Source: Thuidium tamariscinum (lineage: Eukaryota; Streptophyta; Bryopsida; Hypnales; Thuidiaceae). From it: a stretch of 64,000 nt of DNA. The notes below the pieces were generated by a model, which worked only from the letters and a program-made list of their open reading frames with translations, made no database searches and was not told the DNA's origin. The first letter of the stretch is position 1, and each line of letters begins with the position of its first letter. Location of the stretch: the NCBI GenBank assembly GCA_947034885.2, contig OZ019759.1, positions 4,032,501 through 4,096,500 on the forward strand, given 5' to 3'. The translations under genes were made by a program, and so were the position numbers. Positions 2,341 through 26,884 of the stretch are shown here, piece by piece.

Positions 2341-2377
2341 ATAGACAAACTAATTGTTCTCTCCACAGCTCTGCAGA

Positions 2378-3581
2378 ATGGAGGAACAAGTTGCCAGCTT
2401 GGAGATGTATTTCAAGAGATGTGAGGTTCAAAACCTAGACGATATCATTGACGGGGACATGATGCTCATCGAGGGGGAATTCTGGGAGTTTAAAGATCCA
2501 GATCAAGTAGAGGCCTGGAGCTTACACATGATCCCCTTCGTGAACGAGAGTTCATTCTCCTTCAAATTTAAAAACTCACCCATATTCATTCAATTGTCCG
2601 TTGAGGAGAAAGTGAAGGACGTCGAAGCCGATGCACATCCAGTCATCAAGATCAAGTGTATGACAGCTGACAGAGATCTTCCCCTGGAAGATCAATATCA
2701 TTATACCGTTTGTTTGAACTCCACCCTGATTCCGTTACATTGACACCATTTCTTAAAAGTCTTGAAACATCTATATTTGTCGATGAAATAAAGGAGTTGG
2801 AGAAGAAAATGGACAACAAGGAGTGGCAAGATGCAAATGGCTCTCCTCTTGTAGGAAGACGCCTGTGCGCGAAACAGAGGTTCATGTTCAGTGACCTCAG
2901 TACTTTGAAGGCTAAACTTCAGCTACAGGATAAGCTGAAGGAACCACGATCCGTCTCCAAGAACACAGTCACTCCAGGTGGAAGTAAAATCTCAAAGCGG
3001 AACTCAGTGGTCGAGTCAGCCACCGCCAAGGCGAGAAAGAGCAGTCAAAAGCAACCAAGGGTGCCAAGGCAATGACAGTCTAAGAAGGTTGCTGCCACAC
3101 CAGCCATTGCCCAGACTGCAGCAAAGTCTTCCGAACAGTCTGAAATCGCTTCAGGCAGTTATGCTGAGGAGATGCAGAATGTTCCCCACTCGCGTGCAAC
3201 AGAGAGAGCGCTTGACTACAAATTAGTCAGCGAGGTTTACCAGAAATTCTGGTCCACTTGCGACGACACCTACATTCTGGCAGTTGGGGAGAAGCGAGAG
3301 ATCGACATTACCAAGTTGGTCGCTGCCCCTTCGACATTCAATATCCGTTCAAAAGAAAATCGGATAGTGAGAGATATGGTGAACTGGCTACTGAACATTC
3401 CCGATAAGAGTGGAAGATAGACATTGTGCGTCATGTCCAAGGGCTTCACAGAGAAGCCAACTTTGTGGGAACAGGTTGAGAACAACGAATTCTACATCAT
3501 CAACGGTCAGTACAGCGTTGCGGCTAGCAAGTGGATGATGGATGACGCGAATGGGATTGCTGAGAGCGCAAGAAAGGAGTT
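2378..3581 (+). pseudogene. Cassette I, 5' half: N-terminal domain and ParB-like motif, cut by composite element 1
   Basis: The first coding exon starts at ATG 2378, right after an acceptor-like CTCTGCAG. The N-terminus (LIEGEFWEFKDPDQVEAW) aligns with the 'YGTLWEFKDHI' domain of cassettes II and III. A one-base frameshift lies near 2715, a TGA at 3073 and a TAG at 3418, the last aligning with Gln in cassette III. A Lys/Arg/Ser-rich linker separates this domain from the ParB-like core, which reads EFYIINGQYSVAAS at about 3490-3530. The other copies have NGQHS there, so His is replaced by Tyr. The coding sequence stops abruptly at 3581, where the composite element begins, and resumes at 23614. 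I infer a split gene that is not functional in this form. The function of the N-terminal domain is unknown to me. Confidence 0.65.
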
Positions 3582-3610
3582 AAGGCCTTATTCGTTAAAA
3601 CGAGACAAAC
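3582..3610 (+). repeat. Left end of composite element 1: target duplication plus TIR
   Basis: AAGGCCTT at 3582-3589 (TAAGGCCTT if one base longer), followed by the terminal repeat ATTCGTTAAAACGAGACAAA from 3590. The reverse complement of the right end reads ATTGGTTAAATTGAGACAAA, with 17 of 20 positions identical. The left end of composite element 2 (32806) reads ATTTGTTAAAATGAGACAAA. Just inside are further GAGAC-containing subterminal repeats (3660-3695). Confidence 0.85.
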
Positions 3611-4155
3611 CGTAGTCTCATTTTTATGGTTTTCTATTTTAGGATAAAAAAATATTTCATTAAATTGAGACTTTTCATTAAATTGAGACTCAAAAATGTC
3701 AAGAATTATACTTTATTATTATTTTCTTACTTCTACAAGTATAAAATATCTACAATCAACATCCAATTTTCTTCTTTCAATTATTTTATAAGTAAATGAA
3801 GTACCTCAAAACATTTTTAAGTTAGATGTTTTCAAAATGGAGACCTCTACTTCCTACAATATATAGGTGAAATTTCATGATATCACATTTTGACTTAACA
3901 ATCTTGTCACCAACTTCTCTATACAAGAAAATATTTTTCTATTCACAATGCAGAGATACAATCATAAAAATATATATACTATTAATAGAAATCAATATGA
4001 GCTAAGTAATCACCATATTTTGATGAATGACATATCCAGGCAAATGTACATTTGGTACATGCAAATATCATTCTGATTATCTATAACTACAACGGAAAAA
4101 AAATCTAGTACTTGAAATACAACAACAAAAATCTACTACTACCATTATAAAATAT

Positions 4156-7009
4156 TCATTCTTCTTCCATAGACTCATCCTCTTCAACAATACGTTCATC
4201 CATTGCAAAGGCCGCCAATGATGCCTTTATGATACCAATCTCTAAGTTTGGAATTGACACTTTTGGTTTTTTAGTGTTTTCTTGAAAACGAGGCTTCCAA
4301 GCCGTTAGAATACAACCCGTACTTGACCATGTTGGCTCGATCGCGGTGTCTTCACGCCACACATTTCCTTGTTTCATGTCCCATCCTTCATATGTATCCA
4401 TATTAATGTGCCGATTTGAGGTAGGCATCCAATATTGAATCTTGATCATATGCATATGCCCTGGATCTGGACTTGGAGCAGTGATGGCCCTAGCAAGCCA
4501 AAATGGTTTAGGGTCATCATCAGCGGGGCGCACTGCGATAAAAGAACCCTCGTGTGTATCAACATTAACACGGAATGAGGGACGTGGACGATCACGTCTT
4601 CGTCCAACAAACGGTACATCTTCAGCGTCTTCCTCGTGCAATGTGCCATCTCTTTGCATTCGATCTGTCTCGTCAAGGGCAATCCAGGAAGCCGGCCAAA
4701 ATCCATCAAGTAATGCTCCACGGACTTGAAGAGGTGCATCCAGAGCCGCGCGAACGCCTTTCCAATAATCTTCCAAGCCGCCATTCTTCCGCCTGAATTT
4801 TCCTGTGTAATCATCATTTGACATTTTCTTCCAATATTCAACAAAACCGTTCAAACCCTTCTTTATATCTAGAAGAGCCTTCATCGGTTCAGGAACTAGA
4901 GGTGGTGGACTACCGGTTGGCACTTTAGGAAGTCCATCTGTTGTCTCGGACCACAATTTAATTCCCTTGCCATCCTCGGGCAACCACTTATCATCCGTAC
5001 ACAAATGTTTATATTCCATCAAAGGCCATCCATTAGAATCCTTGAAAAACTTGAGTTGTTGAGATCTAGAATGACCCTCTAAGAAGTCCCCACCTGTGCC
5101 GAGGTATCCATGTACAAATGCTTTAAAGTCAGGAACTTCCTCAATAAGATGAGGAATCACAGGAAGTTCTTCAGTATCCATGAAGGACTTCATAAGCCTG
5201 GGAAGTGTGGGATAGTTATTTGTCTTCAATCGAGTGCTCCATCGACCAAAAAGAGCATCAATGTCTTCATGAGTGTGTCCCATAATGAGGAAGTTGATGT
5301 ACACCTCACGAAAAATGCCTTTGCATACTAGCATGGAGCAAAAACCAAAAACACAACGGTTCTTGTTGTCCCCTGAACAATTATCAAGCTGCAATATTAG
5401 TACTGGAGGAAGAGGTTTACTTGGAAGTGGTTTGTCCAGAGGTAGAAGGAGGGAGTCCAAACACGTTTCTGCTCCATTTAAAAGCGCTTTCGTTAAGGTG
5501 GACTGGTTATTTTCTACTGAAAATAACGTGCGTGAAGAATTCTTTGGCACTCCTTCCAAATCACGCAACAATCTTGCAATTGACCCAATGGTATGATTTG
5601 AATCTGTTGGATAAATGCCTAAACCGTAGTGTACATGTCGCACATCGCCATGCCCATGAGCAATCATACCTGTAACAACTACAGGCATTTTCATAAACGA
5701 TTCTGTCACTTTGGTCTTATGAGAAAAGTGTGGGGAAGCGGTCTTCGAGTGATCCATCTTGTCATGAATGATGCACAACATCTTATCTGGAGATCTTATG
5801 GATTTCCCGATTTTCGTAGTAGTACTATCTATGAGCCAATTGCCCTTGATTATGTGTTTCTTTCAGTTTTTCCCACTTAGATCTTGCCTCTTCACCAACA
5901 CAAGCACTTTTCAATTGGTTGTATTTGTCACACAACCCACACCTAGCAAATGAATCTCCACGAGCCTTTGCAGCGAACTCAGGAAAAGAATCACGACGAA
6001 TATTGCTCAAACCACTTGAAGAAATGGGTGACAAATTGAATGTAGCATTGGTTTCATTGATTGTTTTCAATTGGTCACTCCAACGAAACGAAGATGGAAG
6101 AACCATGGTAGTGACCTTTTCCCCAGACTTGAGTGTCCTCATCTTGTGCGGCATCTTATCAGGATCCAACTCAATTAACTTCTGAAGTGTAGTAGTAGCT
6201 TGAAGAGTTTGGATACGAGGCTTCTTACTTCCCAAATTCCCATGCACATCCGCTTGCTTCCCAGTTTTGGCTTGCTCTTTGTACCTATAGTATGTACATT
6301 TTGCAATCCCATGAATGATCCACCATGTGGTAGGACACACTTCTCTCTCTTTCAAGGTGATCCACTCTTTGCCACTAGCGTCCTTGTGGATTTGCCTATG
6401 TACCTCCAAGAGTGTCTTGTTTCGAGCCTTGTAGTCATTCCCTCCATACAAATCGGTCCGTATTGCTTGAATTTGTGCACGTGGAAAAGGTTGTACACAA
6501 TTATTTTCGCAACAACTCTTTGTGGAAACTGCTGTGATTGATTCCATAGTCAAGAGAAGTTCTTTTTGGGGAGGGACCTCAGGGTAAACTCTCACACGAG
6601 TTGTTTCATACGATCTAACCCCCTTACGGATTCTTTTGGGAGCAATAGACGCATTGTACTTATGTGTTTCATCATGGTCATACAAAGAAGCACCATCATG
6701 AAGGAACACTCTCCTAATGGGCCAAGAACATAGTGACCACATGTTTGCAGAGGGGAATAAGTCCTCATTTAAAGATTCAACAATATGAATTGCAACTCGG
6801 TCATCACCAAGCGACTTCCCATTTTGGTCAATGACTAACTCAGGGTCAATGTTCTGAATTACTCCCCTCGCAACGTCCACTCCATCTTCACTTTGCAGAG
6901 TGACAAGCCGCGTGACCCACTTCGCACGAGGGGTTCCATCGCACAAACGAACATCCAGTGGAAGTACAGGGACTGTATTCGCGAAGTCCTCTGATCCATG
7001 GTAATCCAT
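4156..7009 (-). pseudogene. DDE-type transposase-like protein (DUF7869-like), one stop/frameshift in the middle
   Basis: Two abutting frames (394 aa from ATG 7009, and 541 aa ending at TGA 4156) form one protein of about 930 residues. The first half has Cys pairs (CCENNC; RCGLC near its C-terminus), typical of the zinc-binding part of this family. The second half has IIHDKMDHSK, LILQLDNCSGDNKN (Asp at about residue 133) and FLIMGHTHEDIDALFGRW (about 164-181). These are the acidic motifs that I associate with the DUF7869 transposase-like family, presumed DDE/D catalytic residues. At 5780-5827 an in-frame TAG and a net 2-base loss break the frame. The sister copy reads AHREYYYSN there without interruption. 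The start follows an acceptor-like TTTGCAG, and the upstream DNA (7.0-8.3 kb) is probably intron-containing leader. It is the likely mobilising enzyme of the composite element. This copy looks recently inactivated. Confidence 0.7.
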
Positions 7010-7041
7010 TCTGCAAATAATATGTCAACAAATAGAGAATA

Positions 7042-7826
7042 TATCACCGAGTCGATGATAACAAATGAATATGCACATCCCCTTGATTGCAAATCAATCC
7101 AAAGACACCACCGATTGATCCATTGAATTGATTCACATACACCGTTTCTTTTTGTAAAACATTATTTTAACAAGGCAATAAAGATTATATACAATCCCAT
7201 CTGAAAACTATCCTCAAATCGACGATAACGTTGACAAGTCACATATACTCTAATGTACCTCTAGTATGTACGGCTAATAATGATCCTGACATTTGAACAT
7301 GAACAACTCTCTACTACAAAAGAGTAAACACAAAATGCATATTCACTTAGATATTGAGTTATCCTCGACTCGAGGATAATCATAAGCTGTACACATAGTT
7401 TTCAGTAATCGATGTTCCCATTCACTTTTTGATTTAAGTCCAGTCATGGTAAAAATGACAACAAGATTTACAACTTTATCAGGTATCCTCGAGTCAAGGA
7501 TAACCCTTACAAAAGGAGGACTAATAACAAGGGAACCACAATCCGAGCTTCAAGTAAATCTTTAAACATAAAATGATACAATTATCAAATATCCAATATC
7601 AATATGTATTAGTACACTAAAGAGATATCCTCGACTCGAGGATAAGTTCTTCATAAAAATCATGCACAGTACTACCAATGATAGACTTATTCATCCACAA
7701 ATTCACCTTCAAAATTGAGTTAGAAGTCCTCAAGGTTCCCGAGTAATAACCTCAATCACTTCTATGTTCTTCCTTATCATCATCGAGTCGATGATATCGA
7801 CAACTACTATCATCGACTCGGTGATG
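7042..7826 (-). repeat. Cluster of seven type-II palindromes in the transposase leader
   Basis: TATC-type 19-mers at about 7042-7060, 7209-7227, 7360-7378 (perfect: TATCCTCGACTCGAGGATA), 7484-7502, 7626-7644 (perfect), 7779-7795 (core ATCATCGAGTCGATGAT) and 7808-7826. Spacing is 30 to 170 bp. They lie upstream of the transposase start at 7009, which is preceded by a 3' splice-site-like sequence, so they probably sit in 5'-leader introns. DNA between them shows no similarity from unit to unit, so this is not a tandem repeat. Confidence 0.85.
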
Positions 7827-8257
7827 CATTACATGTGTATGCCGCAATTTCTGGCTACAAATTCGGAAGATACACCAAACAATAACTCCATCAACGGCTC
7901 GGTGGAAGTCATTGTAAAATGCATTGCACGACTTCTGAATGAATACAGAATCTCAAAGAATACAGAAGTGCGCACAAACATACGTCAAACATGCGATTCA
8001 TAGAAAACACTACTTGCTACTTACTATGCAGGATGATGATTTTGCAGACGATGCAGAGAAGTACCTGAATCCGAAAACGTATTTGGTATCCACAGATGAA
8101 ATAGCTCCAACAAGTTGTAAGAAGTTGTAGAAGCGAATGCAAGATTGAGAAACAGAAAACGAAGCGTGGTAGCAACAGGAGAGCGTACAGTCAATTGTTT
8201 GTGCAGGACGAAATGAGTGCGGTCTCAAGAAGAGAAGCGGGAGCTTCAAGACAGGAA

Positions 8258-8269
8258 GGGCGGGAAAAA
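8258..8269 (-). promoter_or_regulatory. E2F-like site upstream of the transposase
   Basis: GGGCGGGAAAAA (reverse complement TTTTTCCCGCCC) matches the E2F consensus TTTSSCGC. The same 12-mer is found at 41424-41435 upstream of the second, strongly diverged transposase copy, at the same relative place (about 1.25-1.35 kb before the start codon). Conservation in otherwise diverged flanks supports a promoter role. Cell-cycle control is inference. Confidence 0.45.
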
Positions 8270-8696
8270 TAGGCGCATAAGGGACATTATTTGAATTTGT
8301 CTAAATACCTGCCCTCGGACGCATTTGGGCAAGTGGAATGGAACTTTCGGCGATGCCTTCCACAACTTTCACGCACCGAATAAGCAGTCCGAAGTTGTTA
8401 ATACTGAAATTCCGTGTATCTCCTGACAGATTGACGGCATCTTATAGTCGGCTCCCTATTTTATGACCCTCCATAGTTGTAAACACTAAATGTAGTTCGT
8501 TGACTTCCGAACTCCTACAACTGGAATCTGTAACTTTTCCAGCCAACTTTCACAGTGGCTGCCCACGCCTTTTAGTAAATTCCAATAGCAGTAAATTAGT
8601 CCTACGCTTTCACTTTTTTTAGATTGTAGGGTTCAACTTCTTCCTTTAGTGTTGAACTTTCAGCTGTAGGGAACTGAACTCTAAACCTTACATCTG

Positions 8697-8800
8697 GATC
8701 CTAAATCCTACACCTAAACCCTAAAACCCTATACCTAAACCCTATACCTAAACCCTAAACCCTAAACCCTAACCCTAAACCCTAAATCCCAATTGTGGAA
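8697..8800 (+). repeat. Interstitial telomere-like tract (CCCTAAA)
   Basis: About ten mostly perfect CCTAAA/CCCTAAA units, the plant-type telomere repeat, lie in about 100 bp. One CCCTAA variant is present. The tract is internal and is followed by ordinary sequence, so it is not a chromosome end. A degenerate counterpart in the opposite orientation lies at 41690-41870 in composite element 2. Confidence 0.8.
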
Positions 8801-9693
8801 GCCTGTAGGGTTTAAGATTTAGATGTGGGGTTTAGAATTTAGTTCCTCGCTTTTAGGATTTGGATTTCAAAGTCTCGAACGGTTCAATTGCAAGGGTTTA
8901 AACTCACCAAAAAAACATTGATGATTCATTTGAATATGTGCCTTTCCTAAAGATTTAGAATAAATTATTTCCTATGAAATATTGTTAGTTATGTCCCTAG
9001 AACTTCTATACTCCATCCGTATTTGTTGTGCATATTTCTTTTCATTTTCTACTATAGGCATAAAATCTTTGTCTTCTAAAATATTTAAATGTAATTTTGA
9101 TCTTAAGAGTTCAAAATAGTTATAAGTTTTTCAATTTCTTCGCAAAATTGACTTTTATTACGCTTTAGCGAGTGGCCATATTTTTAATAACATTAAAGTA
9201 CACCTAAAATTCTAGAAAAAATTAGATACTACAAGTTCATATAGATAAATACGTAAATGTTTTTTGTTTTGATAACCCATCTTTGCATTCACATATGGCA
9301 CATAACACTGAACTTATTCCTTGAAAAACTAAAAATACTATTATTAAAATAGCAAATTTGACTTCATTTCATAAAGGATTTTGTATTTTTACAAACTCAT
9401 ATAGTTAGTGCTGCCCTAAATAGTCCACTTGTCTTCCTTTAAATTAGAATCAGATTATTGTAATTTATGTAATTTTGGATAGAAGTCTAAAAATATTATA
9501 CTATAAAACACTAGTAAACCAATTAGTTTTAAAAACATTTCATATAATACCTTCAAGTTCATATTTACTTCTTGTAAAAAAGTGTTTTCAAAATAGCTAA
9601 GTTTTTCAAATACTTTTCATCACATCATTGTAGATAAAGAAGCACCTACGAAGAAACTGAAATCCAAGAACATCTTATACCTTCTATTTTCTA
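8801..9693. other. AT-rich spacer, no gene seen
   Basis: No reading frame of note, no palindromes and no recognisable repeat. It separates the telomere-like tract from the satellite array. Confidence 0.4.
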
Positions 9694-11096
9694 GTGACAA
9701 TAGATTTCACACCAAATGGTAAAATAGAAATGGACGAAGAGATTGAAGTCAAAGTTCTAGGGCCATTCCAACTTCTACATATTTTTTTTGGCCATTCCCC
9801 ACGTGAAAGTGGGCATCATTTCATGCTTGTTCGAATTTTGAGAAAATGGCAGGTTAAGCCATTCTTCCAAATGGAAATAGAATTGGGCATGCTCTCTTCT
9901 GTAAAACCAAAATTCCTCATGGATTCCAATGGTCTAGGGCCACTCCAACTTCTACGTATTTTTTTAATCCATACCGCACGTGAAATTCGGCATGATTTGA
10001 TGCTTGTTCGAATTTTGAGAAAATGGCAGGTTTAGCCATTTTTCTAAATGGAAATAGAATTGGGCATGCTCTCTTTTGTGAAACCAAAATTCCTCATGGA
10101 TTCCAATGGTCTAGGGCCATTCCAACTTCTACGTATTTTTTTTGTCCATACCGCACGTGAAATTCGGCATGATTTGATGCTTGTTCGAATTTTGAGGAAA
10201 TTACAGGTTTAGCCATTTTCTTGAATGGAAATAGAATTGGGCATGCTCCCTTTTGTGAAACTAAAATTCCTCATGGATTCCAATGGTCTAGGGCCATTCC
10301 AACTTCTACGTATTTTTTTTGTCCATACCGCACGTGAAATTCGGCATGATTTGATGTTTGCTTGAATTTTGAGAAAATGGCAAGTTTAGCCATTTTTCCG
10401 AATGGAAATAGAATTGGGCATGCTCCCTTTTGTGAAACCGAAATTCCTCATGGATTCCAATGGTCTAGGGCCATTCCAACTTCTACGTATTTTTTTTGTC
10501 CATACCGCACGTGAAATTCGGCATGATTTGATGCTTGTTCGAATTTTGAAAAAATGACAGGTTTAGCCATTTTTCTAAATGGAAATAGAATTGGGCATGC
10601 TCTCTTTTGTGAAACCAAAATTCCTCATGGATTCCAATGGTCTAGGGCCATTCCAACTTCTACGTATTTTTTTAATCCATACCGCACGTGAAATTCGGCA
10701 TGATTTGATGCTTGTTCGAATTTTGAGGAAATTACAGGTTTAGCCATTTTCTTGAATGGAAATAGAATTGGGCATGCTCCCTTTTGTGAAACTGAAATTC
10801 CTCATGGATTCCAATGGTCTAGGGCCATTCCAACTTCTACGTATTTTTTTTGTCCATACCGCACGTGAAATTCGGCATGATTTGATGTTTGCTTGAATTT
10901 TGAGAAAATGGCAAGTTTAGCCATTTTTCCGAATGGAAATAGAATTGGGCATGCTCCCTTTCGCGAAACCAAAATTCCTCATGGATTCCAATGGTCTAGG
11001 GCCATTCCAACTTCTACGTATTTTTTTTGTCCATACCGCACGTGAAATTCGGCATGATTTGATGCTTGTTCGAATTTTGAGAAAATTACAGGTTTA
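9694..11096 (+). repeat. 177-bp satellite, about eight units, with trimeric higher-order pattern
   Basis: The word ATGGAAATAGAATTGGGCAT recurs at 9871, 10048, 10225, 10402, 10579, 10756 and 10933, always exactly 177 bp apart. A more diverged unit precedes it from about 9694. Units 10048/10579, 10225/10756 and 10402/10933 share private variants (for example tttctaaATGG, ttcttgaATGG, tttccgaATGG), giving a 531-bp trimer repeat. Since 177 is a multiple of three, reading frames run through the array (9694-10035, 10933-11145), but they end at each 'ggtttag' and I do not regard them as genes. Confidence 0.95.
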
Positions 11097-13990
11097 CCTT
11101 CCAATCCTTTTTAATTGGAATGTAATAATTTTCATGAAAACATAAATTCATATGCGTCAACTTCATGTTCTGTTATACAATGTATTACATCTTTACAATA
11201 TTTTTAAAGAAGGTTGATTACAAATGAGTTGAGGGTTAACAAAGGGATTTACCTTCTATGCTTACATTCTAGGTATTGCAATTTCTTACCATACATTTGG
11301 GCAATTCAATGTGTTTTGTGAGCTCCTCTGAAGTTAAAATTCCAAAAACTATGCTAATGAAATTTTAAACATTGTGTACTTCTTTAACTAGGTAGAAAAC
11401 ATGATTTTATTTAAGGACCCTAAAATAGCGGATGCAGTGGAGGTTTACTGAAAATGTTCAAATAAAACAAGTTGGTACAAGTATTTTGAGGTTGCAAGTG
11501 TTTGAAATCTAGAATATAGTGAGGCATTCGATGATTTCCGAGAGTTCTAAAATATTATAGAAAGTACTATAGTTTAATTTTTTGTTTTTAATATTGTTGT
11601 TCAGGTGTAAATTGTATCCTTCTTGAAAATGATGGCATTGCTAAATGATTCACTTATAAATATTACAGAAGAAACCAATCATATGCTTTCATAAGAAATG
11701 ACAGAGAAGTTGTTTTACATAAATTTCTCATGAAAAGGGATATCTTTTTCTTTCAGAGCTTTTGAAATGTTTTTGTTTACAAATTTGGAAGCCTAAACAA
11801 TGTAATAGTAAAAGATTGAACAAACGAGAGTCATCATTCATTTCGATTCTTTCAATACTAGTTTAAAGTGTGGAATTGTACATCATCAGGACTAATGACA
11901 ATCATGTCTCATGATTGTACAAGTGTATAGTTATTAAGTATGCTAGATGTTTGTGTCACCACAATGCAATGACCATGCCTTGTATAATAGAGGCCATCAT
12001 TGATTTGAAATGAAGCGAACATGATATTTGTCATAATGATACACTAGTGAAGACTCTAAATGCTCATGACTTATGCCTTAGTTTAGGATTTCATGTCTCT
12101 TTCTTTTTTTATATGTTACATGAGAAGGTGGATGAGGAATTCATAAGGGAATATAAAAATCTAAATTTGAAGAGAAGTTTGCAGTAGGTAATTAAAAAGT
12201 TGAAATCAGAATTTCTTAACTTATTATAATTTTTGTTTTGTCACCAGACATCATTCGTGCTATCATTATAAGTTCAGAATATTTCACAAATGAAGTTTTC
12301 AAAATTATTTTAAAATACATCTAGTACTATATTGAAGGGGTTTAGGATATTTTATAATTAAATCTCAGTCTCTTTCATAATCCTAGAAAAATGTTTGGAT
12401 GAAATTTTTTTTATCATCTTTTGATGTTTAACTTGTTCAAGTTTCCTAATGACTCTAAGTTTCATTTATGAATACCTAGCATGGATTCAAATGTTTGAAT
12501 TTGCAAATGCACGAAACTTAGAAAAGGAAAATGGAACTCAGATGTCTAATGTTTCAAATTCTTTTTCTATGACCGTACGCTCTTTGAACTGGAAGTATGT
12601 GGAAGGTAAACTCCTTTAAGTAAATGGTATTTCACATATATATTTTTTGTCACTTAGACACAGTTAAACTTTATATCGACTAGGTGATCTACAAAGACAT
12701 TGTACTTCAACATCACATGTAATCCCTACCCCTTTCATATCCTCGAAAACTTAAATCATTAAAATAATCTTGAACTAACCTCTAAACACTTGAGGTCTGT
12801 TTTTTGGCACTATAAAGTTTTCAGGTAGTTCACTACTCATAGAGTTTTTTTTCTTCTTTGCACTGCGTACACAAGATGTGCCCAAGGAGTAGCTTTAAGG
12901 CCTAAGTATATCCGTAACTTTCGACTTTGTGGTTAAAAAGGTATGGCATGAATTGTCGTTTTCTTTACTCGGAGGGTAGCTCGGGCAGCTGAGAAAACTT
13001 CTTTAGAAAACCTTATTTTTCAAAACTGAAATTCCAAATTGATTCTTTAGGTTTGTATAGACATGAGAAGCTTTGTTTCATTCCATTTAAATTAAGGAGT
13101 GAAAAGTTATGAGCAATTTTAGTTTGTAAGTAGATTTGGATTTTTTCAAAACCAACCCTAGGCTTGTTGTCTTCTAATTGTAGGTTGCATTGCAACATTG
13201 TGAAACACTGGTATACTGTATACTTTGTAAGCATGTCATTTTTCCCTCAAAATAATGTAGTTGTTTTAAAATGAAGATTTAGAAGATAATGGTAAAGACT
13301 GTTAAGTGATATGAAATATTCAAATACATGTGAAGTACTGGCCTTTGCAGCTTTTAGTTCTAGGGTGAATTTGTAGAGCAGGTTTTTACTACCAAACAGG
13401 ATTTGGGTAGAAAACATCTCCATTTTTTTTTAGTACATCTCCAAACAACTTTGAAATAAAGAAAAATATTAGATGAATTAGCTTAATTTTGGATGAAAAT
13501 AATGAAAAATATTAGATGAATTAGCCTAATTTTGGATGAAATGCATCATACACATCCAAAAAATTGTATGCGAGGTGCAAATTAGAGCGTGCGCAGAACA
13601 TTTGAAATCGCCACTATGACTATTGTCCAAACATGCATTAAAAGTATAGAAAAGCCCTATTGGGACCACTGAAAATTTGGCAATTTATGTGAAAGGATGT
13701 TCATGTAGGTTCGGTGTAGGCTTTTTTGAGGAAGCTGCAACCAGCCCTTTTTTTTTGGGCGATATGGTGCTAGGAAGCACCATTTCCAAAAAAAAACTAT
13801 TTTTCGCTAGAAAAGTATCGAAAAAAGTAACCTTTCTTCGCTAGAAATTTACCATTTTCATGAAAACCGTGGATGACATCGCCAAATTTAGATGATACAG
13901 TGTATGAATATAAATATAAAGTATTTTTTAGTGCAAAAGTTGGATGAATGTAGAAATACAATGCTTCACCAGTTTAAAAGAATGCCATGT
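11097..13990. other. AT-rich spacer of composite element 1, no gene seen
   Basis: Nearly 2.9 kb of AT-rich DNA without a supportable gene. The only structure I noticed is a short local duplication at 13445-13540 (aaaaatattagatgaattagc..taattttggatgaaa, twice about 50 bp apart). The corresponding spacer in composite element 2 (42.95-45.28 kb and 52.7 kb on) is equally gene-free. Confidence 0.45.
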
Positions 13991-14020
13991 TGGCACTTTC
14001 ACAAAAAGAAAAAAAAAGGG

Positions 14021-14165
14021 CTGGCCGCAACCCGGACGTTAGGTTCGGGAAGTTTTTTGGCGGCTTGGGGCTGCCCGCAACCTGGACGTCAGGTTCGGGA
14101 TTTTTTTTGACGGCTCGGGGCTGCCCGCAACCCGGACCTCAGGTTCGGGAATTTTTTTGGCAGCT
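14021..14165 (+). repeat. GC-rich tandem repeat, about 3 units of 55-60 bp
   Basis: Unit 'gctgcccgcaacccggac.tcaggttcggga.ttttttt.gcggctcgg' occurs three times (from about 14022, 14080 and 14130), with T-runs varying in length. It marks a sharp rise in GC just before the cassette II promoter/leader region. Confidence 0.8.
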
Positions 14166-14466
14166 CAAGGAGGGTCAGCTGGCGGCTTGGGGTGCGGTAT
14201 GGTAGATCATCTTCCTCCGCGCGCAATTCTCTCATTGTGTGCTTTCGAATTTGCGTGGGTGTTCTCGTTCATCGGGGTTTACGGAGATTTGTTTTCTTCC
14301 GCTCTACTTCACAACCTTCTCTTGATTTGTCTCGTGAGTAGGGGCAGGCGAGTTCTCGCGAGTTGGGGCGGGCCAGATCCTATAAATTCCGAAGCTTTCA
14401 TTGAGAGTAGCGGGAATTCTTGTCTTCATTCCTAGAGTGTCATTTGGGTTTACGGTGAGTGCATTT

Positions 14467-14556
14467 GGGTGTGCATTGCGTCGCAGGGGTCCGATCGGGT
14501 GTGCATCGCGTAGAGGGGTCCGATCGGTTGTGCATTGCGGTGGAGTGGTCCCATTA
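14467..14556 (+). repeat. Short tandem repeat, three units of about 30 bp
   Basis: GGTGTGCATTGCG...GGGTCCGATC is repeated three times with small changes, in the non-coding leader of cassette II. It is comparable in position, but not in sequence, to the leader repeat of cassette I at 905-1090. Confidence 0.7.
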
Positions 14557-15245
14557 GGTAGCTCTCTTGCAGCATTGGAGAGCATTGCAGAGCTGCTAGG
14601 GTTTTCAAGTTTTTTATCAGACCCGTGAGCGTGTGACTACTGCACGGTTTGGAGGCGTTGTCGGATTTGTTGCGCCAAGGATTTCCGGATTCCTTGTACA
14701 GGTGATTTCGACTGCCTTTGTGTGTGTCTGTTGAACTGAGATGTGTTGCATTGTTGAAGTTCCAATCCTGCCTCATTGCTTGGGCTTCAAACCGCAATTT
14801 GTACTGCCTTTCTACAATTCTGTTTTCGTAGTTCCTGTTTGCAGTCCTCCGAAAGTGAGTGTCTGTTTTTGGAACAGTAGTGTGTAGTTTAGGGTTTAAG
14901 AAAATTATGTGAAGACTTTAGCTGATTGAATTCACTAACAAAAGCTTTGAACTATCCAGGATCTTCTGTTTTGTAATCGACATAGTTTTGCATGCTTTAG
15001 CCCTCCAATTGCAGAGGTTTTTACAGTATTTCTCACATTTGGTAAGCTATTACAGAACCTTTCTACAATTCTGTTATTCGATTGAATACCTTTATGTTGT
15101 TTCGTAGTATATGGGTGTAGGATGTTTTTTCTTTCTACTGTAAATTAGGGTTTAGGCACGGGGTTTAGGGTATAAGTGTATTAAAAAACAGAATATAACA
15201 ACATAATTTTTATGGAATTAGGGTTCGGGGAGAGAAAATAGCCAG

Positions 15246-15848
15246 TATCCTCGTATCGGTGATAAAATTAAAAGCACAGAGGTGAAGCCAAACTAAATAC
15301 TTAGGGTTTTAGAACAGAGAGAATGTTATCCTCGACCCAACGATACAACCAAAAGTGTGCATTTGAGAATTTTATCCCAGAGTGTAGTTATCATCGAATC
15401 GAGGATACTACCCAAACACGCTAACCAATGAACCTGAACACTAAAACCGTACAAATGTATTAGAAAAAAGTAACAAAGTAACATAAATCTCAAATCAACA
15501 TAAATATCCAAAATTCCATCGCGTTCCTCACTTCAATAACATGATTTCAAAGTTTGCTCTCTGTACATTATATCGTGAATTAGTGTAGTTATCCTCGATA
15601 CAATGATAGATCCTACATTCTGTTAGAAGAATTAGTTCATATTAAGAATTTGTAGACAGATCTCTCATGGTACAAACTGTAGAGTGCAAGAAGTAACTTA
15701 TAACTAAATCCCGATATTATGAATGCTGGATGTGAGAATGTAACTTCCTTCTCGTTCAAAATGGATTAAGCTGGCATTCTTCCATAGCTTTTTGGTTAGT
15801 GAAACACTTATTAGTAAAGTATTACGTCTTATCATCGAGTTGACGATA
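15246..15848 (+). repeat. Cluster of five type-II palindromes in the cassette II leader
   Basis: TATC-type palindromes, mostly imperfect, at 15246-15264, 15327-15345, 15389-15407 (TATCATCGAATCGAGGATA), 15590-15608 and 15830-15848 (TATCATCGAGTTGACGATA). The last lies 40 bp before the acceptor GATGCAG that precedes the first coding exon. The stretch is interpreted as leader intron. Confidence 0.8.
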
Positions 15849-15897
15849 ACATTGTCATGACTAACGATACATGTGCTCATAATGATGCAGAATTTCA

Positions 15898-18800
15898 ATG
15901 GGGACAGCAGAGGACTATGATTACTCCCTCACGGCTGACCATCTTCAGCCGTTCATTAACCCCTTGCAGGACGAGCCATTCATTTCAGAAATGCAAGAAA
16001 CTTATGGGACCCTGTGGGAGTTCAAGAGTCATATCTACACCTGGTGTTTTGGGGTGAACCGGTTTAGGAACTACGTGTACCTGCGTTACTGTGTTGAAGG
16101 AACCACCGTGTATATGCCCTGGAATACAAAAGAGGGGTGACTCTCATTGAAGACCATCACAAAGACTTTGTTGTGATCATCCTGCAAGAAATAGACGATG
16201 CTGGCAACGTCAAGGATCACAGTCATTCCATCGTTTTGAACGTGAATTCATATCACGGGAAATTCGATATAGACAATTTAATAACATTCCTGGAAGGCTG
16301 GGCGATGGAGTCATTGAACGTGCATTTTTTGAAAGCTGGGTACGTTCCTTGGAAGAACAGCATTGTTAAGTCCAATGCCACTCGACTGCGCCTCATTTTC
16401 CAAACATTGGATCGTTACGCTATGGAACACGTAGAGAAGCAACCTGTCATTGGTCGTCCCACTGAGCAGAGACAACGTCCAGTGAACCTTGATCAAGGTA
16501 GAAGAACTGTGACTAGTGCCGGGTCAGGGAGCAAAGCTTCAAAACCTCGTCAGTCGAGATCTGAACCCAAGAAAAGGAACCCTCCTCCACAAGAAGGTGA
16601 GTCAAGCAGGAAAAGAAAGAAGAGCCTTTCGTCTGTAGCAGCTACTGCCAACAGCTCCGCTTCCGCACTCACTATTGTATCAGGGGGTGCAACAAAATCT
16701 GAGCCCGAGATTCCAGACTTTAAGAAGTTTGACGAGATTCAGAAGAAGTTCTGGGCTGAGCATAGAAAGTGCTTTCTGTTTGATGAAGAGACAATGAAAG
16801 TTGACATCAAACAGTGCGATGAGGCGCGTCTCGAGTACGTGATTCGTACTCTTCAGAGAGACATTCTGGAGGCCGTGAAGAGGGAGCTCATCTAGCTTAT
16901 AGACGTCAAACAAAGGGAGAAAGTGTGCCTTACTCCAGTGGGTTTGGATGGAAACCTATTGCCCCAGAAACCAAGGAAGTGGGATGATATTAAGGCTGGC
17001 CGCTTCATGATTATTAATGGCCAGCATAGCATAAAAGCTTCTCAAGAGCTGCAACTAGGCGGCTGTGGGGAAGCCAGGAAGGTGGAACTAAAGACCTGGG
17101 ATGCTTACATCGTATGGTCTATGAACGATAACCAATTAAGAAACATATCGAAGTTCTATAACTGCACCAATCACTTAAACCACGCTCAACCGACGTGGGG
17201 CAACCAAGTAATTAGTTGCAAAAGGATTTGGGTTACTTACGGTCGTTCGACTGACACGAAATCAGAGGATGGGACACGAAAAAATGGAGCAACAATTGAC
17301 CTGGTGAAATATAAGGTGAGTATCATCAACTCAATGATATCTTAGGTTCAGTGTAGGTGTTCAATCTTGCATTCTTCATGGTGAAGAAGTAAAATTCTAT
17401 AAATTTTTTCACAGATGGTAATTGTACAAATGCTTGGATTGTCCTCGAGTCGACGATATGGCATGATCACCTGCAAAATGTTTGACAAATTATATTGTGA
17501 ATCGTTTTGCAGAATTTCACTGGCGCTGTCATCAAGCGGTTCAGAAATATAAACCCGGACAAGGATGGCGCCTCCATTAGTGGAACCTCAAATCTCAAGA
17601 ATGAGATCCAAATAATCACCCTGCTAGACAACCTGTGGGAGTTCTGGGAGAGCTTTTTGATGAAGCACTCCGACGGTGACTTGGTTGACCCCGTGACTTT
17701 GGAGCCATTTAAAGCGAACAAGCTCTTCAAAGCAAAGAGCATGTCATTGAAGAGGGAGTTCTTCAAGCACTGCGGACACTTCACGGACGAGGACTTCGGT
17801 GTCAGCGCACAACACTTGCTCGGTTTGACCCTAGGACGGATTTCTAAATATCCGAAGGTCTCCGTCGTGTCGACCAGAGTTCTAGTTCCTGACAACATGA
17901 CCCACAAGAAGTGGGTCGAGCGCAGGAAGCGTAAAAAGGTTGTGCTACAAGATCTAATGGCAATTAACCCAAGCTTGAAGTTCATCACAGCTGGTGGTGA
18001 AGTTCTGAATGAGACCTGGAAGTCTTGGAAGGCCAGACATCAGTTCACCTCAGCTTCATGGGACTTCCTGCTAATGCACCCGAGCGTTGATTACTTCAAG
18101 AGGCGATTGAGGAACGACGCATGGTTGAAGCGCGCGAAGGACCTGGAGAACCAATTTCTCGCGATTCTGCACATGTTTCAGCGTTTCATGAAGCTGAAGT
18201 ATCAGCTTCCTGATCCGTCTGGTGGTGTTCAAATTAGAGGCGTGGACTACTTGAAGATGGCACTCGTAACAAGCTCCAATTACCGGTACGTGAATCGAGA
18301 GGTGAACTTCGCCCTCGTCGATTTCAAGGTGGCTCCAAGAGAGAAGCCCACAGACACAAGCAGTGCCATAGGTCGTTTCCTGACCTTTCTGTGGGAGAAT
18401 CTTTCGCCAAAAATGAATGAAGCCAACGTGTGGCTCTTCATTTTGCGGGGATCAGATGACATCGAAGCCGCAAAGGCCTTTGCGTTGCTTCATATGACAG
18501 AGTATGACAACGTTTTGTCTACGTACCATCCAGCTAAAGCTGAGCTTCTGGACAATGTGACCTCTCGAGGGACGGCTCCCAACGTGCCCTTCCTCTTCCT
18601 ATTCAAAGAGAATAACGAGTTCGCGGCGTCCAGTCAAGCGCTCCTAAAGTCAAGTTATTCGACTGTCCCAACTAATGTATATTACTCAGATTGGGGGAAG
18701 AATACTGAAGCGAAGTGGAGGATTAATCCCACCGAACTCTTTATGGAGTTTTATTTGGACATCCTTCACGATTTTGCGAAGTCAGAGGAGAACGTCCTCG

Positions 18801-19277
18801 GCATTTACGTAGGGGCGAAGTTCATGCTCGCAGCTAAAGTGAGTACCTGACCCTTTCTGGAAGTTATCCTCGAATCGATGATATCGTCTTTTGTTTTCCC
18901 CTAAATTATGCAGACATCGGGTGTTGGTAATTGGCTTAGTGAAATCTGGTATCATCGACTTGATGATACCCGTCGCGGCGGCCACGATATCAAGTTCCTT
19001 GATGATGTTCTAATAGAACTGGTTTTCGTATTTTGTAGATGTTTGGGGCCTTCTACTATGGATTCGTTGACAGGAGTGAGGTGAAGTCCTACAAAGCGAT
19101 CTCTTCTCTAGCAGAGAAGATGGATAAAAGGGACTTCATGATTGGGAATTCGCCATACTCCTTGAATTACGTGAAGCCTCAATCACGTGGTCCAATTATA
19201 GTACGATCGGACTCGCCACCATCGCCGGCTACTACTTTTGTCTCCCCAGCTCAGTAGTTCGACCTTCTTCTCGGGTG
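15898..19277 (+). CDS. Cassette II: N-terminal domain, ParB-like motif and diverged beta-class DNA-methyltransferase-like region (3 exons; one frameshift, in-frame TAGs)
   Basis: Exons: 15898-17315, 17513-18838 and 19039 to TGA 19275-19277, about 990 residues. The N-terminus holds ETYGTLWEFKSHIYTW and GVNRFRNYVYLRY (unknown domain), then a Ser/Lys-rich linker. FMIINGQHSIKAS (about residues 370-383) resembles the ParB/DGQHR nucleotide-binding box. Exons 2-3 follow the motif order of beta-class N4/N6 methyltransferases. NFALVDFKVAP stands where D/N-P-P-Y is expected, ANVWLFILRGSDD matches the next strand, and ENVLGIYVGAKFMLAAK then MFGAFYYGFVD matches the X-I region (VLDpFxGsGtt..AA...gr..vGiE). 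The canonical PPY and GxG residues are missing, so methylation activity is doubtful. Defects: one base missing in a G-run near 16136, TAG at 16893 (Gln in cassette III) and TAG at 19255. Domain naming is by eye, from motif order. Confidence 0.6.
17316..17512 (+). other. Intron 1 of cassette II, with two palindromes
   Basis: Starts GTGAGT after codon AAG and ends TTTTGCAG, phase 0. A palindrome (TATCATCAACTCAATGATA, 17321-17339) begins five bases after the donor, and a second (TCCTCGAGTCGACGATA core) is at about 17440-17458. Cassette I has an intron at the same place (23866-23991), with an AGCT-type palindrome nine bases after its donor. Confidence 0.8.
18839..19038 (+). other. Intron 2 of cassette II, with palindromes
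   Basis: GTGAGT donor after LAAK and TTTGTAG acceptor before ATG-TTT, phase 0. It splits the methyltransferase-like X-I region between LAAK and MFGAFYYGFVD. Palindromes lie at 18865-18883 (TATCCTCGAATCGATGATA) and 18950-18968 (TATCATCGACTTGATGATA), with a weaker one at 18988-19006. The intron position is identical in cassette I (25336-25524) and in cassette III (before 61790). Confidence 0.85.
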
Positions 19278-20624
19278 ACAGAAAACGTTGGCCCACATGT
19301 AATACCAGATCCGGGGGTCCAGGGAATTGACGAGTATGGAACAAACACGTTCTAGATATATCTCTGGACGTCAGTACCTGCTGTTGGCGACAAGGCTACA
19401 CAACCCGCTATGCCTGAACCTAATGAGCTGGAGGTTTTGGAGATTGTGGAGCATTAGCCTTCTCCACGAGCACCGTTGAATTCTGCTACAGCCGAGCATG
19501 ACGAGTCCCAGGATGACGAGAGTATGGAGATAGACTCAGAATTCGAGCGGCAACAGGTGAAGCGGAGAACGAAATGTCGAGAGGAAGAGGACTCCCTGGG
19601 CCTCGAAGGCGAGGAAGACTCGTTCCTAAAGTCGCCTGTGAAGGAAGGGGACGACGAATCCGAAGATGAAGATGTAGTCATGCAAGAAAGGAGGCTTCCC
19701 ATCGGTGAGGTGGATGTAGAAGGGAGGCCTCTCTTTTATGATTTTGGGGATGATGACGACCCCATGGACCATCCCTACGATTCGGATCATGACGACGACG
19801 ACCACGATGCTCCTCCGAAGTAGAAGGAACCGAAACCCTTAGTCCTCCCCGATGACAGAACGATCAAAGTGGAAAAGGACTACTGGGCAGAGCAAGAGGA
19901 GGTGAGAAGAAAGCGGATCGAGAGGACAGAGGAGAAGAAAGCAAAGGACAAGCTGCTGGAGGAAACAAACGCCAAACTCATCGCTGTCACGTAAGAGTCC
20001 GTGCAGTCGAAGGAGAAGATGTCTGCGCTGGAGCTGAAGTTGCAAAGGCTCTCTCAACTAGTAGAGAATCAGTTTGGTCCAACGGCTATCCAATCGCAGC
20101 TTTCCTCGCCTGCCCCACCTGCCGTCCCAGTTCCTCCTCCAGTGCAGCAGCTGGTTTCTGGGCCTCCGTATCCTCAACTCGAGGATACCTCCCAAGTCGT
20201 TTCCTTAATTGACACTGAAGTCGTCGAATGCACTCCTGCATCCCAGCTCAGGGTGAGGATGGCATCTCCGCAGGTGGCTGCATTTGAGGTGGCAGTACCT
20301 CAATCGCAAGGACCTGCTCAAGAACAGGCTTGAGATTATCGTCGACTCGACGATATCGATAAAGTCGCGAAGGAGCAGCCCTCGAGTTCAGTATCGGCGC
20401 CTGAACTTGATACGATTGAATAGGTGCATGAGCCCATGCAGACCTCCTCTCCGGTCGAAGAGGAGGAGAGATTGGACTATGGGGAGAACGACCCCGATGA
20501 AATCGTCCTCGGGGAAGGGGAAGATGAAGTTGTTGCGATGGACCTTGAAGATCAAGGTCCTCTCAACCCGGCACAACCGGCGCAGGTACAATCCTCTGGT
20601 CCTTACGCTTTTGATTGAATATGA
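19275..20624 (+). CDS. Cassette II: acidic, coiled-coil linker region with in-frame stops
   Basis: One frame stays open over about 450 codons apart from TAG 19353, TAG 19455, TAG 19821, TAA 19992, TGA 20331 and TAG 20421. Cassette III aligns through most of it: RENVGPHV, the acidic run with DDDD, KVEKD(Y/H)W and a Lys/Glu-rich coiled coil. At 19353 the sister codon is CAA (Gln). At 19992 both copies have a stop, TAA here and TAG in cassette III. Junction with the preceding exon is unclear: a conserved TGA (19275) and a few-base length difference suggest either a gene end or a lost splice. It may be part of the same protein as the methyltransferase-like region, since in cassette I these parts share one frame. 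No enzymatic motif is seen; a scaffold role is a guess. Two palindromes (20169-20187 and 20337-20355) lie within it. Confidence 0.45.
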
Positions 20625-21094
20625 AAACACGAGATAAGGTGCCTTACCTTCTAGAAATGAGATGTTCTTCAGAGAATTGTAATTCTTATAATGATCTGTC
20701 ATGTCTCATAGGAGGGAGTTGCCACTCCTTGACATCCTGGCACTGACAGAGAACCCATTTGTGGCGGACAGAATGTAGTATAATGTAGAGTAGTCCTCGA
20801 GTGTACAGCCTTAACGGCATTAAAATTTTGAAAATGTATTTTATACACCGTGTAAATAAAATCTTGGAATTTACAATCTACACAAGTGTGTATGTCTAAT
20901 TGAATTCCCTTATCAATGTTTTTGGTTCAGCTCAAGGTTAGTGTAAGCTTGCATCACCCGCTACCCATGAAGCCAATTCCTAAAGGAAGGGCGCAGTCCA
21001 GTAGCGAGTTGCAATGCGTCTCTCCCTATTTTGGCTTTACCAGTCTTGCAATTATTCAGGTAACTCCAATTCTTTGTTGTTTTGGTTTGATCAG
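20625..21094 (+). other. Probable intron/short exon region between linker and HAD domain
   Basis: AT-rich with GT- and AG-like sites (ATTCAG|GTAACT near 21060, GATCAG|GTAAGA near 21095), but I cannot place exon borders with confidence. No palindrome of the dominant type is present. Confidence 0.3.
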
Positions 21095-21122
21095 GTAAGA
21101 TCGGAGGGAGGAAAGGAGGTCA

Positions 21123-21934
21123 TGCGGACGATTGAGCGTCCGATCATGCCTCCGCTGAGGAGGAAGTGGCTGAACATTGTCTTCGACCTGAACGGGGTGC
21201 TCTATCACTCCTCGTTGGCGAAATTCGACAAAGAATTCAAGCACTACAAGGTCGAAGACAATGTTCTCAACCATCGGTACCCGACCATCATCGGGTCCAA
21301 GGCTGTATTTGCTAGGCAGGACGTCGGCGAATTTCTGAAATAGGTGTCTGAAATCGCGAATAAGGTCGTGGTCTGGTCCTCAATGTACAAGTATAACGCG
21401 GAGGCCATCGCGGGACACTTGTTCTCAAGGTGTAGACCTCCCTACAAAGTCCTAGGACAGGAAAACTATACCAAGATAGAGTACAGTCCCGGGAAGTTCT
21501 TCCATCGTGGTCCGAAAGAATTGAACATGAAAGTGCTAAAGCATGGTCTGTTCGACACTATCAGTAATGTAGGGCCGTCGTTTTCGACGGAGGACACCCT
21601 GCTCATTGACGACTCTCCCGAAAAGAGTGTCTGCAATGAGACCGGGAACTCCATCTTCCTGGAGACCTGGAGCTACCTTAATCAGAGGGATGACGTCTTC
21701 ATGGGACAGCTGCTCCCGTGGCTCCGACGGTTGCATTTGGGGTGCAACCCCCATGGGGGGTTGCTGCGATACGTAGACAAGAATAGGATAGGCAATAACC
21801 CCCTCTCCCGCGACCATTTTCATCTCACGGAAATCCTTGAGGTCATGAGGGAGTCAGCGGATTGCATGAACACTCGTTTCAAAGTGCCCATCGCAGGTCT
21901 CACCATCGAGAGACGCCGTCGTTGTAGAAAATAG
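21123..21934 (+). CDS. Cassette II: FCP1/NLI-like HAD phosphatase domain
   Basis: The frame reads RRKWLNIVFDLNGVLYHSS, with motif I DLNGVL: nucleophile-position Asp at 21185, and Asn where FCP1/SCP enzymes have the second Asp. VVVWSSM (motif II), the Lys-rich stretch after VLGQENYTKIEYSPG (motif III region) and TLLIDDSPEKSV (motif IV, Asp pair at 21608-21613) follow in the right order. This family dephosphorylates Ser/Thr residues, classically of the RNA polymerase II tail. The target here is unknown, and the D-to-N change at position +2 may impair acid/base catalysis. A TAG at 21341 falls where cassette I has Glu; TAG at 21932 ends the frame. The start is uncertain: ATG 21123 is the first Met before motif I, but the domain is probably an internal exon of the cassette. 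Confidence 0.65.
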
Positions 21935-22165
21935 ATTTTTTTGATTGTAGAATTAGGCATCGAGGGAGTCCAGGCAAATGGTAACTAATTTTTTATATAC
22001 GTAACGTTTTTTTGTAAAATAAATATAATGTTTTTTCATGGCATTCTACGTTCATCTTGAAAATCTTGTGCTTCATCGATCTTGATGCATAGCAAGTTCC
22101 AGATGTATCCGTGTACTTATAGCAAGGATCGTCTTTGGATTTGCATTGTTACTATTTTATTGCAG

Positions 22166-23068
22166 TTTGGAGCTTTGCGTTCTATTCCAACGCCCAGAAA
22201 AGAGAAGCTCACTAGGAGCCTCCTCTCGGGATCAGAGATTTTGCCCTCCACCGAATCTGATTTTGGCGGTGGGAACTGCGAATCGGTTCCAATATCCAAG
22301 CCCTACATGTTGCGTTCATCCACAGATGCCGCGTCAGCCGCCATAGACTTTTCCAAGGGGAACATTGAAGATGGAGTCGTCGACAGCCCTCCGAGTCGCA
22401 CTACGGGTAGGACTCCCATCTGCTCGCCGTCGCTGTTGAGACGGACATCCTCGAGCCGAGGAAGGTCCTGGTCGCCGACTCCGCAAAGGGATGGAGCGAC
22501 CAGTCGAAAGCTCGAACTCCCTGTCGAAGATGCTCTTGGGCATTCCCGCCTCGAGGATAATGTCCCGCCTTTGAATCGGTTCTCTGGTAACCGTACCATG
22601 GCTGTGGGTTCCCAACTTGAACCTGGTGCTCCTAATGTCCCTGTTCGCTCACCTCGACTTCAGGACAATCCAACCCGTTCCTCCAATTCGACAGGAGGAA
22701 GGCGCCTGCCTTCCACGGATAGTCTTTTTCGTCAAAGATTTTTTAGAGAACATCGACGCTTTTTAGACACCGTGTCTACCGGAACTACTCTTCCCTTATC
22801 AAACAATGAGAAGGGCCCTCTGCCTAAACCGCCCCCACGGAATTCCAAATCGATTTCCACTTCGGCAGTTCCTCAGAGTACGCGATCATCGAAACGGAAA
22901 GCCAACGAATCTCATAGTCTAAGTGAGACTGGAACTCTGTACAATGAAAATGGGTCACATTATTCTTCTCGACACGAGGATATCTTAAGAGGTCTTGCAA
23001 AGCTGAAAGCCGAAGAGGCAGGGAAGGCTGTACATGTAGTTCAGTGCGAAGCTGCTAAAAAAGATTGA
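22166..23068 (+). CDS. Cassette II: disordered Ser/Pro/Arg-rich C-terminal exon
   Basis: About 300 codons open to TGA 23066-23068, following an acceptor-like TTTATTGCAG. Composition is Ser, Pro, Thr and Arg rich, without hydrophobic core. Short blocks (IDFSKGNIEDGVVDSPP; SSKRK; a terminal Lys/Ala helix) align with the last exon of cassette I (MDFSRKPINDGIVDSPL at 27235 on), which shows that it belongs to the cassette. The exon downstream of the HAD domain implies that the protein continues past TAG 21932, or that the two are separate genes. The donor upstream is not clear. Function unknown. Confidence 0.5.
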   Translation, partial: FGALRSIPTPRKEKLTRSLLSGSEILPSTESDFGGGNCESVPISKPYMLRSSTDAASAAIDFSKGNIEDGVVDSPPSRTTGRTPICSPSLLRRTSSSRGRSWSPTPQRDGATSRKLELPVEDALGHSRLEDNVPPLNRFSGNRTMAVGSQLEPGAPNVPVRSPRLQDNPTRSSNSTGGRRLPSTDSLFRQRFFREHRRFLDTVSTGTTLPLSNNEKGPLPKPPPRNSKSISTSAVPQSTRSSKRKANESHSLSETGTLYNENGSHYSSRHEDILRGLAKLKAEEAGKAVHVVQCEAAKKD

Positions 23069-23585
23069 AGCTCTTACTAGCTGTAAGAAGGTAAGATGCG
23101 ATATTTCTTACTAAAAATAGAATGTTCCATAACCATAACTTAGATTTACAAGGTCCATGCCTTCCATATTGTACAGTCTATAATTAGTATGGAAATGGAC
23201 ATAGAAAAGTAGGTTAAAAAAGATCGAGGCTGCCAGGGCTACACATTGAGTACGTAAAACTTTTTGGTCAAATTTAAGCCAATCGTAGAATTTCACAACT
23301 TGTTCTCTTTAGAGGAAATTGCATGTGGTCCTTGGATCCAATCACTTTTTAAGTTTGCAAATGCCCAAAGGCTGTATACCCAATTGAAAATCCACGTTCT
23401 TCATTCTACTTTGTTCTGCTCATCATCCTCATGCATCATCTGAATGACCATCTTTAATGGAAATGCCTCCATTGGAATGTATAAGCGAATTCTCAAATCA
23501 CCATTATTCATTTATCGTTGGATTCAACAACTTTTACTTCGAATGATCATTGCATAATCATTTCTACAAGTCTCAAAATCACCAT
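23069..23585. other. 3' flank of cassette II up to the right terminus of composite element 1
   Basis: AT-rich, no gene. Near the end it contains tctcaaaatcaccattttgtctc-type subterminal sequence related to the GAGAC motifs inside the left terminus. Confidence 0.5.
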
Positions 23586-23613
23586 TTTGTCTCAATTTAA
23601 CCAATAAGGCCTT
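23586..23613 (-). repeat. Right end of composite element 1: TIR plus target duplication
   Basis: TTTGTCTCAATTTAACCAAT (23586-23605) is the inverted counterpart of the left terminus. It is followed by AAGGCCTT (23606-23613), matching 3582-3589. Directly after it the interrupted cassette I resumes with KWNYFLVWSDDDEKLQ. Confidence 0.85.
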
Positions 23614-26870: not shown

Positions 26871-26884
26871 AGGAACATATCAAG

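Follow-up and report, generated by a model that had tools for sequence, protein, structure and literature searches.

Giant cut-and-paste DNA transposons, most likely of the Sola1 type, with a ParB-like/methyltransferase-fold/HAD gene cassette in the moss Thuidium tamariscinum

We analysed a 64,000-bp stretch of the Thuidium tamariscinum genome (contig OZ019759.1, here C11, positions 4032501–4096500; "the window" below, to which all plain coordinates refer) and found that the 20,032 bp at 3582–23613 form, with high confidence, one copy of a multi-copy family of 17.5–26 kb cut-and-paste DNA transposons. The family is most likely Sola1-type, an assignment made from the described features of this type. 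Besides its transposase, the element carries a gene cassette on the opposite strand, coding for a ParB-like protein with a methyltransferase fold and for a HAD-type phosphatase. Taken as a whole, a giant Sola1-type family whose cassette serves the element itself is very probably the best explanation of the data. An initial annotation of this DNA had called it a strong candidate for an undescribed system. That description does not hold, since a similar 21.5-kb Sola1 element of Ectocarpus with a ParB and methyltransferase gene opposite the transposase has been in print since 2025, so that the kind was already known.

Ends, target-site duplications and transposase

The inverted termini that had been annotated at 3590 and 23605 are indeed there: ATTCGTTAAAACGAGACAAA starts at 3590, ATTGGTTAAATTGAGACAAA stands at 23605 on the reverse strand, and AAGGCCTT is found outside both. 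These AAGGCCTT flanks had been noticed before and are real, but they are not a target duplication. We surveyed the left ends of 30 loci, a subset that includes the window copy, out of 77 transposase matches in the searched genome (363 Mb, 19 contigs). A similar terminus is present at all 30 loci, adjoined by AAGGCCTT in 28 (the window copy among these) and by AAGGCCAT in two, and both copies with AAGGCCAT on the left carry AAGGCCTT on the right. AAGGCCTT is therefore the outer 8 bp of the terminal inverted repeat (TIR). With AAGGCCTT counted in, the left TIR (AAGGCCTT plus ATTCGTTAAAACGAGACAAA; 3582–3609, forward strand) and the right TIR (23586–23613, reverse strand) agree in 25 of the first 28 bases. 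For 20 further copies we fetched the predicted right ends; the terminus was present in 17 and not found in three, which are left uncounted.

The true duplication is 4 bp long. Both ends could be parsed by script in 17 further copies (16 of the 20 plus the L025 copy; 17.5–25.8 kb in length), and directly outside the TIRs 16 of these 17 show exact 4-bp direct repeats, the sole mismatch being AACG/AATG. Flank agreement at 3, 5, 6, 7 or 8 bp was seen in 0/17 copies and at 2 bp in 1/17, while end pairings that were deliberately mismatched as a control agree at 4 bp in 2 of 272 cases. Copy L002, for which the script parse failed, has ATAT on both sides by eye and brings the exact duplications to 17 of 18. 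In the window copy the duplication is AGTT (left 3578–3581, right 23615–23618) and is imperfect, because one extra C precedes the right repeat at 23614.

The annotation had furthermore described a host reading frame interrupted by the element. The frame is restored on joining the flanks, but it belongs to no host gene: the window copy (A) inserted into an older relative, B, and the frame is that relative's ParB-like exon, so that the proposed nesting in its own relative stands. When the flanks are joined at a single AGTT, the ParB exon of a different copy aligns to the product without a break (80.9 bits). Joining with an 8-bp duplication yields two frames of 50.8 and 37.7 bits, and joining without any duplication also breaks the ParB-like frame. 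An 8-bp target duplication is hence ruled out by the end variation, the flank statistics and this frame-join test.

The annotation is right in that the element is a giant TIR transposon and encodes a DDE-type transposase itself. The gene, with a DUF7869 (PF25273) domain, lies at 4156–7024 on the reverse strand, where a frameshift near 5804 splits it into frames of 568 and 399 aa; many other copies have open transposase frames of about 950–990 aa. The protein is predicted to adopt an RNase H-like fold. Its alignment has invariant Asp residues D34, D160 and D202 at the sites expected from the predicted fold (D37 is invariant too), and we infer that D34/D160/D202 form the putative catalytic DDD triad. 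The window is eukaryotic in its introns and the genes it contains, and the species-named proteins among the 120 transposase relatives listed come from the mosses Ceratodon purpureus and Physcomitrium patens, and our literature search found no mention of DUF7869. Copy A is decayed, with broken transposase, ParB-region and HAD frames, while other copies hold the same genes in uninterrupted frames; decayed copies such as A could presumably move only in trans. This anatomy leaves hardly any doubt that the DDE protein acts at the TIRs and moves the elements by cut and paste, with 4-bp duplications as the outcome.

A conserved gene set and internal arrays

Cassette gene 1 runs on the forward strand. 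It comprises an N-terminal region (15892–16505, with a frameshift near 16130 in the window copy), a ParB-like region with the motif IINGQHSIKAS (16743–17318, with an in-frame TAG at 16893–16895 in the window copy), a helical region plus a beta-class DNA methyltransferase fold (residues 240–449; 17501–18850, open in the window copy) and one or more following exons with a motif-II-like and a conserved NSPY segment (19033–19565). The ParB assignment is made from the motif alone, Pfam scans of the region having given no match. Cassette gene 2 (21071–21922, forward strand) encodes a HAD/NIF-type phosphatase in which DLNGV replaces DxDxT/V and which carries an in-frame TAG at 21341–21343 in the window copy. 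A conserved Ser/Pro-rich frame follows at 22202–23026 on the forward strand, either as a gene of its own or as the last HAD exon.

The methyltransferase region matches N6A/N4C enzymes in its predicted fold, and in this respect the initial annotation was right; the usual catalytic motifs are absent, motifs IV and I being replaced. In an alignment of 38 rows (37 of 59 homologues plus the window copy), motif IV, [DNS]PP[YFW], occurs in 0 of the 37 rows that cover the site, and the canonical FxGxG of motif I is absent in 31 of 31. Pfam gave only scattered weak matches on this alignment and no methyltransferase or ParB family. A profile of the region found nothing among PDB sequences up to E 1, and a scan of viral contigs for the gene returned one stretch that matched the pattern and encoded no relative. 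The HAD frame of another copy gave an unconvincing best E of 0.057 against PDB sequences. The cassette protein thus appears to be a methyltransferase by predicted fold only, seemingly without an active site. The NSPY segment (19033–19254, with counterparts in L052 and L055+L056) lies 3' of motif II and might be a displaced catalytic motif.

The cassette had been described as cargo that moves with the element. It does move with it, in the same arrangement at many transposase loci, but it belongs rather to the genes that form the core of a large family. The methyltransferase-fold gene has at least 94 scored matches in the genome. At 58 of the 77 transposase matches it is found on the opposite strand and the correct side within 30 kb, and no other arrangement occurs within this distance; redrawing the positions within contigs 500 times (the lengths of C1 and C3 being approximate) gave a mean of 1.1 and a maximum of 5 such linkages. 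Seen from the other side, 56 of the 94 listed methyltransferase-fold matches are linked to a transposase in this way, and 81 are followed on the same strand by a HAD match no more than 12 kb away, mostly at 2.5–2.8 kb (150 listed of 151 HAD matches were used). With HAD genes counted within 40 kb, both genes accompany 55 of the 77 transposases, three have the methyltransferase-fold gene only, 12 the HAD gene only and seven neither. Another 47 HAD matches lie near no listed gene. One of these, at locus C8 (L055+L056), was inspected and has the full gene set with a transposase 59% identical, showing that the gap lies at least partly in the lists and not in the elements. The same gene order and strand arrangement is seen in B, in a further relative, C, in C8 and in the L025 copy. 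The annotation had proposed to search for further copies that share both the paired ends and the gene order; such copies are present in the genome.

All three coding regions give low omega values (Nei-Gojobori, pairs with dS 0.05–1.2). The medians are 0.079 for the transposase (19 rows and 144 pairs, after exclusion of 11 of 30 rows because of stops), 0.128 for the methyltransferase-fold region (22 rows and 35 pairs; 20 of the 94 matches plus the window and L025 copies) and 0.186 for the HAD region (21 rows and 133 pairs; 20 of the 151 matches plus the window copy). The values are indicative, as the fetched cargo rows were selected to be stop-free and the pairs share branches. For the six closest pairs omega amounts to 0.30–0.48 in the methyltransferase-fold and 0.03–0.44 in the HAD region, which broadly fits decaying copies. 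Low omega together with co-inheritance suggests that the cassette serves the element, for which it probably does something.

Between transposase and cassette we found a 177-bp tandem array of 7.6 copies (9756–11096). Arrays with units of 176–179 bp occupy the same place in the L025 copy, in B (two arrays) and in the C2 copy; they are absent from C and C8. The units are strongly diverged and share a core of AACTT and a T-run, with ACGTGAAATT in three of five consensuses and a perfect 28-bp palindrome in two of the four that were tested. Units of the A type form 35 clusters genome-wide, 14 of which are flanked by a transposase and a methyltransferase-fold gene that are linked to each other (random mean 0.23, maximum 2). 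Nine more have a listed gene no farther than 20 kb away, which is unremarkable (random mean 4.1, maximum 11), and the remaining 12 are near no listed gene. B-type units have 173 genome matches.

Nested neighbours and further observations

The left cassette part of B is found at 2354–3581 (forward strand); the transposase of B is located still further upstream, outside the window (L053). The right part follows at 23619–27595 (forward strand) with the remaining ParB-like exon, the methyltransferase-like region, the HAD gene (26262–26870) and the tail. The B transposase has the same orientation and is 49% identical to that of the L025 copy over the best stretch; for the methyltransferase-like and HAD regions the identities are 25% and 31%. 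To the right of the window copy lies relative C (32798–64000, forward strand), with its left TIR at 32798, its transposase at 33379–40065 on the reverse strand and its cassette at 55966–62668 on the forward strand. C extends past the window, so that its HAD gene is found beyond it (L054), and its transposase gene is interrupted by a 3.8-kb insertion. This insertion is the first of two 3.8-kb direct copies (34868–38660 and 45991–49773) that are 11.1 kb apart and 89–98% alike by stretch. Their frames give a gag-like impression, and a related-looking frame is located at 50824–52077. In the right flank of the L025 copy (L052:8832–9500) we saw a frame that we take to resemble a CACTA/EnSpm-type transposase.

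Two elements contain plant-telomere-like CCTAAAC/TTAGGG repeats 0.8–1 kb before the ~177-bp array (CCTAAAC at 8700–8786 in the window copy; L051:5393–5482). One HAD clade is 57–61% identical to the window HAD, and 23 of its 28 listed matches have one or more in-frame TAGs, which may reflect a stop passed on by descent, the border of an intron or some other cause. Contig C11 (17.5 of 363 Mb) is rich in the family: among the matches listed it holds 28 of 77 for the transposase, 41 of 94 for the methyltransferase-fold gene and 79 of 150 for HAD, while 3.7, 4.5 and 7.2 would be expected by length. C11 is perhaps a sex chromosome, an idea that comes from the Ceratodon transposase relatives named KC19_VG, whose V-linkage we read from the name alone.

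Classification and possible function of the cassette

With its 4-bp duplications, TIRs, DDD-type transposase of predicted RNase H-like fold and occurrence in a moss, the family resembles by description the Sola superfamily, which has just these features and is present, Sola1 included, in Physcomitrella; some Sola elements exceed 15 kb, most measure 2–9 kb, and the accessible text of the sources mentions no accessory cassette (PMC10741241, PMC9033089). The closest known system is found in Ectocarpus, for which giant KDZ, EnSpm and Sola-1 elements with frequently pseudogenised transposase genes are described. Like the moss element, Sola1-1_Ec32 (21.5 kb) is about 20 kb long and has a gene with a DNA methyltransferase domain opposite the transposase. 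In Sola1-1_Ec32 this gene codes for a 1104-aa protein that also has a ParB-like domain, to which the ParB-like motif of the moss gene would correspond. Unlike the moss element, Sola1-1_Ec32 belongs to a brown alga and has a predicted N4C/N6A methyltransferase, and no HAD gene or tandem array is named in the accessible parts of the paper (PMC12477816). An intact N4C/N6A motif IV, as expected of elements like Sola1-1_Ec32, is not found in the moss family. The moss element is a probable land-plant variant of the Ectocarpus kind; the HAD gene, the methyltransferase fold without catalytic motifs and the internal ~177-bp arrays are new as far as the literature was searched.

KDZ/Zisupton elements were considered because of the idea of an 8-bp duplication and because of the TET/JBP cargo of fungal elements. 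KDZ and other fungal transposons with TET/JBP likewise carry a gene for a DNA-modification-type enzyme, but according to the accessible portion of the source their cargo is a different one and they make duplications of 8 bp (Zisupton/Dileera) or 7 bp (Kyakuja) (PMC12730594). As none of the 17 moss copies agrees at 7 or 8 bp, we rejected KDZ, Zisupton and hAT, which usually makes 8 bp. piggyBac, whose target is TTAA, was rejected as well, since the moss duplications vary and TTAA occurs in 1 of 17.

We propose that the ParB-like/methyltransferase-fold protein would recognise the element's own DNA, probably at the tandem arrays, and would keep this DNA unsilenced or help the two ends to come together. 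Since the residues that a methyltransferase needs are replaced, the protein would act by binding. The target of the HAD phosphatase may be a host protein of chromatin or of transcription. VANDAL elements are Mutator-like transposons, and their VANC protein is not known to be related to the cassette proteins. VANC, a transposon-encoded anti-silencing protein of Arabidopsis, has targets that are often tandem repeats and vary between related elements, as far as the source is accessible (PMC5735166). The moss protein may by analogy be a DNA-binding, non-catalytic protein with reiterated internal sites, and self-recognition or anti-silencing in the manner of VANC is a possible, still tentative function. 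It is more doubtful that three parts act together, namely a dead-methyltransferase ParB-like reader, a HAD effector and the ~177-bp arrays as cis-target, with reader and target co-diverging as in VANC/VANDAL; each element would then shield or mobilise only its own kind, using proteins unrelated to VANC and of prokaryote-like origin.

Another reading, which was put forward for the Ectocarpus element, is self-marking: the protein would be an active DNA methyltransferase (N6A or N4C) with the DNA of the element as its target. The fold match, the low omega, the reading of the algal authors in the accessible text of their paper (PMC12477816) and the NSPY segment in the following exon all speak for it. 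We nevertheless consider this unlikely, given a motif IV in 0/37 and a canonical motif I lacking in 31/31 rows. A further candidate is a ParB/parS-type complex as in plasmids, by which copies of the element, for example excised circles, would be paired or segregated. It would be consistent with the ParB-like motif, with the constant unit length of 176–179 bp inside divergent elements and with the shared ACGTGAAATT and palindrome. It is quite improbable, because Pfam scans of the fetched frames returned no ParA family, two of four arrays lack the palindrome and some elements have no arrays; the likeness to parS is short, and we treat it as no more than a lead.

Captured genes are generally found in large transposons, and cargo taken up by chance from the host (Pack-type), without function for the element, would be another explanation; Pack-type cargo differs between copies and forms no conserved set. 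Pack-MULEs are mentioned in the accessible text on Ectocarpus (PMC12477816). In the moss, 55 of 77 transposase matches are accompanied by the same gene set, always on one side and one strand; the set is kept in B despite identities of only 25 and 31%, and has median omegas of 0.13–0.19 in the cassette regions, so that capture by chance is largely refuted and very improbable. An assembly artefact or chance inverted repeats have a practically negligible likelihood; for the family this is refuted by exact 4-bp duplications in 17 of 18 further two-ended copies.

In summary, transposons with ParB and methyltransferase domains, known from algae, are extended to a moss, in which they occur in many copies. 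The idea of self-methylation gains a testable alternative, in which a methyltransferase fold serves for binding. Should the tandem arrays indeed be the target, the family would provide another plant case of transposon-encoded, sequence-specific self-recognition, achieved with unrelated proteins.

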